A DNA stretch of 64,000 nucleotides, taken from an uncultured Alphaproteobacteria bacterium. Its GTDB lineage: Bacteria > Pseudomonadota > Alphaproteobacteria > UBA6615. The notes beneath the pieces were generated by a model. It was not told the DNA's origin. It saw only the letters and a list, made by a program, of their open reading frames with translations, and ran no database searches. This document shows, in pieces, positions 52,823-54,476 of the stretch. The translations under genes and the position numbers were made by a program. The DNA lies in contig CALSNJ010000003.1 in the NCBI GenBank assembly GCA_943787745.1, positions 248,001-312,000 on the forward strand, in the 5' to 3' direction. Each line of letters starts with the position of its first letter. Positions within the stretch are counted from its first letter, which is position 1.

Positions 52823-53856
52823 TTGGGTTGTAGAGCGATTTTGGCTCTTCTACTGCTGTATGCCGTTGCCTTGGCGCCTGCCAAGGCAGGTGGCGGGTTC
52901 GATACCGCACGTCTTTCCGATGTTGTTGCCCAGGCCCGTTCGCTTGAGCGTCTCAACACGTTGATTGTGGCCCGGAACGGAGAGGTCGCGTTTGCCGAAT
53001 CGTTTCGCGGACGAGGGCTCGACACGCCGGTTAACGTTAAGTCGGTTTCAAAGTCGCTGATCGCGGCGTTGGTCGGAATTGCCGTGGATCGTGGCCTTCT
53101 CGAAGGGCCGGACCAGAACGATCGGTGCGCTATTGGCCGGAGCGCATCCCCGCAGGCTGCTGACCCGCGTGTGCGCAGGCATCACCATCGGAAACCTGCT
53201 GTCCATGCAGGCGGGTCTCGAACGCACATCGGGGCGCAACTACGGGCGCTGGGTGCAAAGCAGTGACTGGGTGGCCCATGCGCTTTCTCGTCCTTTCGTC
53301 GATGTGCCGGGTGGGGGGATGCTCTACTCGACGGGCAGTTCGCATCTGCTTTCCGCAATTCTGACCACGGGCGAGCGGGCGCAGCACGCTCGATCTGGCG
53401 CGGGACTGGCTGGGCAAACCTCTGGGCATTCGATATCCCGCCCTGGGACCGGGACCCTCAGGGGGTCTATCTCGGCGGCAACAACATGGCGCTCTCGCCG
53501 AACGCGACTGCTGCGGTTCGGCGAACTCTACCGCCGCGGTGGTGAGCTCGATGGTCGCCGCATCCTGTCCGGAAGCCTGGGTCGAAATCGTCCTGGATGC
53601 CGCGCACCCGCTCTGTGTTTCTCTGGCGATGGCTACGGCTATGGCTGGTTCCTGCGCGAGTGCCGGTGGCGGACGCACCGCCGCTTATGCCCGTGGTTTT
53701 GGCGGGCAATACGTCATCGTGGTGCCGTCACTGGCCATGACCGTGGTGGTCACCTCGGATACGGATACGCGCCTGCGCGTCGACGGTTACGGCGACGCTT
53801 TATGGTCGATGATTGAAAATCATCTGATCCCTGCTGCGTTGCCGACCGAAGGCTAA
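52823..53856 (+). pseudogene. Beta-lactamase-family serine hydrolase, multiply frameshifted
   Basis: Pieces of one protein occur in different frames. Frame one has a signal-like start and VKSVSKSLIAALVGIAVDRGLLEG, the SxxK active site. Another has ITIGNLLSMQAGLERTSGRNYGRW and DVPGGGMLYSTGSSHLLSAIL (the YxS-like motif). Short bits in other frames read STLDLARDWLGKPLGI, GVYLGGNNMALSP, LLRFGELYRRGGELDGRRI, and the end is GFGGQYVIVVPSLAMTVVVTSDT. At least six frame changes are needed within about 750 bases, too many for isolated sequencing errors, so this is a decayed gene. The exact start is uncertain. Confidence 0.85.
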
Positions 53857-54476
53857 CTGCCAGCCTTCTCTGCCCCCACCGCATCCATGAACTGCACCAG
53901 CACCTCATAGGGCTGGGCGCCGACGACGCCCTGTCCGTCGGCGACGTATGTTGGGACACCGGTGACGCCATAGCCCTGTGACTTGGCCCAGTCGGCATCG
54001 ACCGCGTCCTTGAAGGTGCGGTTCTCCAGCACATCGCGTGCCGCCGCGCCGTCGAGGCCGACGCCTTCGGCGATGCTCACCAGCAGGTCGATATCGGCGA
54101 TGTTCTTCTGGTCCACAAAATAAGCCTGATAGAGCTTCATGTGGATGGCATCGCCACCTTCCTGGGTGTCGGCCCATTTGCCGAGTTCCTGTGCCAGACG
54201 GCTGTTATAGGTGTGGGTGCGTTGGGCGTAGGGCAGGCCCTCTTCATCCATCATCCCCTTCATGCGGGCGTACATGGCCACCGGGTCATAGTCGCGACCG
54301 GCAAACAGTTTTTCCAAGGACAGACCCTCATCGGGGGTGTCGGCGTGGAGCGGGAAATGCACGGTCTGGATTTCGACGTCGTAGGCGGCCTTGAGTTTTT
54401 CAATACGCACGGTACTGAGATAACACCAGGGTCAAACGTAGTCGGAGAAGACCTCAAGAACTTTTGGTTCGGACAT
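53853..54476 (-). CDS. FrnE/DsbA-like oxidoreductase with UPWC active site: probable selenoprotein (in-frame TGA at 54434-54432)
   Basis: From ATG at 54476 the frame reads MSEPKVLEVFSDYV, then TGA, then PWCYLSTVRIEKL and a complete DsbA/FrnE domain to the stop at 53853, 207 residues in all. FrnE relatives start with an EVFSD-V-CPWCYLG type motif, so the TGA stands exactly at the first Cys of CPWC, while the second Cys is kept. Other motifs are LFAGRDYDP, YNSRLAQELGKWAD, AYFVDQKNIAD and YGVTGVPTYV (cis-Pro). Selenocysteine would make U15-P-W-C. A GTG eight codons later would give a 185-residue protein with no active site. The alternative is a TGC/TGT to TGA mutation in a dying gene. Confidence 0.75.
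54400..54418 (-). promoter_or_regulatory. Candidate bacterial SECIS hairpin
   Basis: In the mRNA, UCAGUAC pairs with GUAUUGA (7 bp including one G-U) around the loop CGUGC. The loop covers nucleotides 21-25 after the UGA, inside the 16-37 window usual for bacterial SECIS elements, and has G as its second base, as the known consensus asks. It overlaps the coding sequence, as expected in bacteria. Paired by hand; no folding energy was calculated. Confidence 0.5.

Follow-up and report, generated by a model that had tools for sequence, protein, structure and literature searches.

A probable selenocysteine-containing FrnE-type protein of the DsbA family in an uncultured alphaproteobacterium

Introduction

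The window analysed here, a stretch of 64,000 nucleotides from an uncultured alphaproteobacterium, contains a gene interrupted by a single in-frame UGA, which is almost certainly decoded as selenocysteine (Sec) at codon 15, so that the product would be a selenoprotein of the cytoplasm, placed in the FrnE branch within the DsbA family and using U15-C18 as its redox pair. The first-pass annotation had proposed a Sec-containing protein, and this interpretation is supported by the conservation of the TGA, by the Sec machinery of the source genome and by a downstream stem-loop that is absent from the Cys versions of the gene.

This kind of selenoprotein has already been recorded, and no new selenoprotein family is added. 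The Sargasso Sea selenoproteome of 2005 already included nine sequences of DsbA-like UXXC selenoproteins assigned to COG2761 (PMC1088965), and the GOS survey of 2008 described 63 sequences as 'DsbA 1' (pfam01323, UxxC) (PMC2398784); a DsbA-like selenoprotein family also appears in reviews of 2022 and 2026. The mostly marine families of the two surveys share with the present case the assignment to COG2761/PF01323, the UxxC motif and a bacterial SECIS right after the UGA. COG2761 corresponds to the FrnE group. The literature search found no paper joining 'FrnE-like' with 'selenoproteins', the family being filed as DsbA-like or COG2761. A putative placement in the same subfamily as the Sargasso sequences (e.g. 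AACY01178397, NIP15863.1) is judged by COG, motif, habitat and SECIS position. Whereas the Sargasso and GOS cases are metagenome reads, here the gene and the Sec machinery are found in one near-complete alphaproteobacterial genome, which makes it a well-supported case. Beyond the first-pass annotation, the present analysis contributes the machinery, the conservation, the SECIS, the exchange of Sec and Cys and the literature.

The gene and its reading frame

When the minus strand is translated from 54476 to 53853 and the TGA is read through, a protein of 207 residues results, beginning MSEPKVLEVFSDYV-U-PWCYL... and followed by a TAG (Table 1). The TGA at codon 15 is the sole internal one, and there are no further stops or frame shifts across 53853-54476. 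The first-pass annotation had described a complete FrnE-type protein on reading one TGA, with this codon standing exactly at the first active-site Cys (VUPWCY) between conserved flanks and with the second Cys intact, and the description holds on all these points. The read-through protein matches the Pfam DSBA family (PF01323; E=1.8e-35, 122.9 bits) over residues 7-196, and a profile of the orthologues aligns the TGA with the first Cys of the CPWC of Deinococcus radiodurans FrnE (E=2.7e-32). The second Cys, C18, is the only one encoded in the whole protein.

It had also been expected that standard gene callers would start at the GTG at 54410 and lose the catalytic motif. Under translation table 11, the ORF from this GTG (54408-54410) is indeed only 185 aa long and lacks residues 1-22, including the active site. 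The reading proposed here thus restores a gene that routine annotation, in this genome and in many related ones, shortens to a point just beyond the active site.

Table 1. Coordinates of the gene, its proposed signals and related genes; positions are those of the window unless a contig is named
Feature	Position	Strand	Basis
Complete CDS, predicted Sec FrnE/DsbA-like protein, 207 residues + TAG; ATG 54476-54474	53853..54476	-	Translation; PF01323 E=1.8e-35; AlphaFold2 pLDDT 93.8
In-frame TGA, codon 15, almost certainly read as selenocysteine (U15)	54432..54434	-	18/18 relatives readable at the motif and 74/80 homologues of the scan have TGA; 6 have Cys
Putative redox motif U15-P16-W17-C18 (Cys homologues: CPWC)	54423..54434	-	Translation and alignment
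SECIS-like stem-loop (7 bp; second of five loop bases is G), UCAGUAC-CGUGC-GUAUUGA	54400..54418	-	Comparative
GTG (Val23, within the stem-loop), start expected from a table-11 gene caller	54408..54410	-	ORF by table 11
Pro175 codon in TGVPT; invariant; expected site of the cis-proline loop opposite the active site	53952..53954	-	Alignment, structures
SelW/Rdx-like CKIU gene	Source genome (G000), contig C1:264318-264518 (L127:1501-1701)	-	One in-frame TGA
AhpC/TSA genes with TGA	C2:1350677-1351117 (L133); C1:309145-309510 (L002); C5:214546-214920; C5:215149-215544
Cys orthologues L075, L081, L094, L109, L110, L112	Alpha- and Betaproteobacteria records		60-66% identity, whole length

Family and fold

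Within the DsbA family the protein fits the FrnE branch, and its modelled fold, its U-P-W-C motif and its TGVPT loop point to a thiol-disulfide oxidoreductase of thioredoxin fold. The AlphaFold2 model, built with 25 homologues and with Cys standing in for Sec, has a mean pLDDT of 93.8 and a pTM of 0.90. Its best match among solved structures is FrnE (5COH; TM 0.88, rmsd 2.0, 33% identity), followed by SCO1869 of Streptomyces coelicolor (PDB 3GL5; TM 0.87, 30% identity), a putative DsbA oxidoreductase of the FrnE branch. In the model and the alignment, U15-PW-C18 heads a helix spanning residues 16-31, and TGVPT (172-176) is invariant, with Pro175 presumably in the cis state.

D. radiodurans FrnE (DR_0659; PDB 5CNW, 5COH, 5XWH) resembles the window protein in having CPWC at the same place and a TGVP loop, but it carries Cys where the window protein has Sec, as well as a C-terminal CX4C that is absent here. 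The subgroup defined by this second motif was ruled out for the window protein, C18 being its sole Cys, which leaves family membership unaffected; Streptomyces roseofulvus FrnE is among the FrnE proteins without CX4C (PMC8945050). Two further assignments were considered and rejected. The Rcas_1661 family (seleno)lipoprotein model (NF041057) gives a partial match of 36.5 bits against a curated cut-off of 190 bits, and 2-hydroxychromene-2-carboxylate isomerase and GST kappa structures (TM 0.71-0.75, 15-18% identity) fall far under both SCO1869 and FrnE, the latter with a TM of 0.88 and 33% identity.

Selenocysteine machinery of the source genome

The source genome, 97.9% complete and assembled into 7 contigs totalling 3.27 Mb, carries all of selA, selB, tRNA-Sec and selD, which lie on contig C1 within a span of about 16 kb. 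The selA match (581.9 bits) is above the curated cut-off, selB encodes 640 aa and overlaps selA by four bases in a selA-selB operon, the tRNA-Sec scores 71.2 bits and has the anticodon UCA, and selD scores 294.9 bits. The SelD domain follows an FAD/NADH-type oxidoreductase domain in one fused protein (L011:1390-3738, minus strand, contig C1), and its GCGAK region contains Cys rather than Sec.

Other selenoproteins of the genome were sought family by family, and their tally covers the families searched. A SelW/Rdx-like gene contains one in-frame TGA in its CxxU motif (CKIU), and four AhpC/TSA (peroxiredoxin-like) genes contain one TGA each, within HWUPYC in the two that were read. With several Sec-type redox genes and a complete machinery, the source organism is therefore a user of selenocysteine, which it employs in a number of redox proteins of the thiol type. 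The formate dehydrogenase matches in the genome, from a single-family search, contain no TGA and add no support. The two AhpC/TSA genes on C5 neighbour each other, and one of the four lies about 4 kb from selB. A weak-scoring match to Carboxymuconolactone decarboxylase/AhpD-like proteins, also with one in-frame TGA, is found at C1:324364-324579.

The presence of this machinery also bears on whether the UGA might be read through in another way, either under a reassigned code in which UGA means Trp or Cys, or by unprogrammed, selenium-free readthrough. The products of such events would be indistinguishable at the DNA level, but this explanation is highly unlikely: the tRNA with anticodon UCA is a genuine tRNA-Sec in a genome that also has SelA, SelB and SelD, and TGA swaps with Cys codons at this position, as Sec would. 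Moreover, TGA is the commonest stop of the long ORFs in the window (15 of 32) and, since it serves as an ordinary stop, a genome-wide code change does not account for codon 15. An Rfam search of the window returned a tRNA-Ala and no other match.

Conservation of the UGA codon

All 18 homologues in relatives that are readable across the motif (60-92% identity, of which two run off the end of a contig) have TGA at the position of the window's codon 15. Throughout the 95 relatives, the full-length homologues above 60% identity have exactly one in-frame stop each, and it is a TGA. Among the 80 best homologues from the genomes of 84,980 species (GTDB 220), 74 have TGA and six have TGC or TGT, with no other codon. 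The two sets overlap and jointly hold 80 distinct TGA genes, the window's gene counted. The species-wide scan used two patterns, first DYVCPWC, which favours Cys, and second YNSRLAQE, which is blind to the Sec codon; the TGA excess is therefore not a search artefact, with the caveat that ranking homologues by likeness to the Sec protein favours the Sec clade. In these sequence comparisons, the conservation of TGA at codon 15 far exceeds chance.

The source records of the homologues comprise Alpha-, Beta- and Gammaproteobacteria, together with two soil bins named Rokubacteria, and some record titles (Klebsiella, Bordetella and Rhizobium bins) are probably those of misnamed environmental bins. 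The gene also travels with the machinery: selA is present in 18 of the 20 genomes with the TGA gene, as against 12 of the 75 without it (Fisher p=1e-9), and the two TGA-gene genomes in which selA was not detected are 77% and 87% complete.

These data leave a pseudogene extremely unlikely, that is, a gene in which the TGA is a true stop and which is either dead or gives rise, by starting at the GTG at 54410, to a shorter protein. The step from a Cys codon to TGA takes one base change, and the neighbouring beta-lactamase-like gene is visibly frameshifted, but the same TGA has been retained in about 80 distinct orthologues. Signs of decay were looked for among the homologues, and the gene is not decaying, the reading frames being intact on both flanks of the TGA, including residues 1-14, down to 60% identity. 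In addition, the Sec machinery is complete and a SECIS-like stem is retained in the TGA versions only.

Two observations concern broken frames elsewhere. The beta-lactamase-like gene (class C, PF00144; 52712-53856, plus strand), convergent with the Sec gene, extends over three frames and looks frameshifted, decayed or affected by assembly errors. In a congener, the homologue of the Sec gene (L032; G001 C7:90511-91132) is broken into three pieces that lie in different frames, although the TGA is retained, which reflects either an assembly error or early decay.

The SECIS-like stem-loop

RNAalifold, applied to an alignment of 19 orthologues, predicts one 7-bp stem with a 5-base loop, starting 13 bases past the UGA. 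The full seven pairs are possible in 69 of 75 TGA genes and six pairs in the other 6. One stem pair is compensatory, being U-A in half of the 19 orthologues and C-G in the remainder without any mixed combination, while a second shows rarer exchanges (AU, UA, GC) among the 75 TGA genes; a common two-sided change is limited to the first of these pairs, and a near-invariant 7-bp stem allows little covariation. When the partners are slid by 1-3 columns, the paired cells fall from 98% to 23-42%. The loop reads CGUGC, CGGGC, GGUGC, GGUCC or GGUUC, and a G occupies its first or second base in every TGA gene compared. Folded as a single sequence over a 61-base stretch, the window's stem is no stabler than shuffled sequences (z -0.11), and the support for the stem-loop comes from comparison across genes rather than from the stability of the window's own sequence.

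Codon choice also points to this region. At codons 20-26 the commonest codon is used in 90% of cases on average, against 61% in the rest of the gene. Leu20 is CTC in 74 of 74 TGA genes and Arg24 is CGT in 75 of 75, although among the 873 Arg codons at other positions of these genes CGT accounts for only 78 (9%). Furthermore, Ser21 switches between AGT and AGC in step with Ile25 or Val25, a silent change paired with an amino-acid change opposite. The stem residues also encode protein, but coding cannot account for the fixed synonymous codons, and this codon choice shows that the stem RNA is under selection. With its position directly past the UGA and the G of its short loop, the stem-loop fits a bacterial SECIS and is a putative SelB site.

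In the six Cys orthologues, which have TGC or TGT at the Sec codon, the SECIS stem is absent: just 2-4 of the seven pairs can form, and the residues also differ, the motif being followed by YLGDNR.. or YLASAR.. instead of the YLST[VG]R[IV]E of the TGA genes. A sequencing or assembly error concealing a true TGC or TGT is the least probable reading of all, for although the assembly behind the window is a draft and metagenome-assembled genomes are frequent among the relatives, the same TGA recurs in independent assemblies from many projects and species, accompanied by a downstream codon pattern that is missing from the Cys versions.

Proposed mechanism

With the UGA taken as a Sec codon, SelB, bound both to the Sec-tRNA(UCA) and to the downstream stem-loop, would place Sec at residue 15 without termination. 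U15, as the attacking residue, would then cycle with C18 between the selenol/thiol and selenenylsulfide states, exchanging disulfides with substrate proteins or small thiols. The protein is likely to be cytoplasmic, since in the model its chain opens almost directly with a strand (residues 5-11) and has no N-terminal extension before it.

The most likely redox direction is that of a reductase or isomerase, if D. radiodurans FrnE is taken as a guide. That protein is cytoplasmic and has disulfide isomerase and insulin-reducing activity, the corresponding mutant is sensitive to cadmium and diamide, and the CX4C near its C-terminus is proposed to restore the active site after turnover (PMC8945050). 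In the window protein the CX4C is absent and C18 is the sole Cys, so an outside reductant would have to recharge the U15-C18 pair, presumably the thioredoxin or glutathione systems. A conserved gene neighbourhood was sought at 81 loci, where the top neighbour occurs in at most 13, and no partner can therefore be named from context.

Exchange between Sec and Cys

The Sec/Cys column was masked for a tree that joins the 81 close homologues to ten more distant FrnE proteins with Cys. In this tree the two groups are split by a long branch (SH-aLRT 100). The Cys state corresponds to three changes on the tree, of which well-supported branches force at least two. The betaproteobacterial Cys protein L094 clusters with two TGA genes (support 99), and this position is best read, on the sequences compared, as a Sec-to-Cys change.

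There is a somewhat better than even case that the SECIS RNA, and not just the function of the protein, holds in place the residues and codons that follow the active site in the Sec clade (L-S-T-V/G-R-I/V-E). If so, the change from Sec to Cys would release the start of the catalytic helix, over its first turns, to diverge into LGDNR or LASAR, and L094 beside its TGA neighbours would offer natural before-and-after pairs for the hold of an RNA signal on a selenoprotein sequence. With 80 TGA and 6 Cys orthologues from Alpha-, Beta- and Gammaproteobacteria and 'Rokubacteria', both the exchange of Sec and Cys and the codons imposed by the SECIS become testable.

The five alphaproteobacterial Cys proteins form one clade (support 100). 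At codon 15, Cys is found in some of the close and in all of the distant homologues, and a third residue never occurs.
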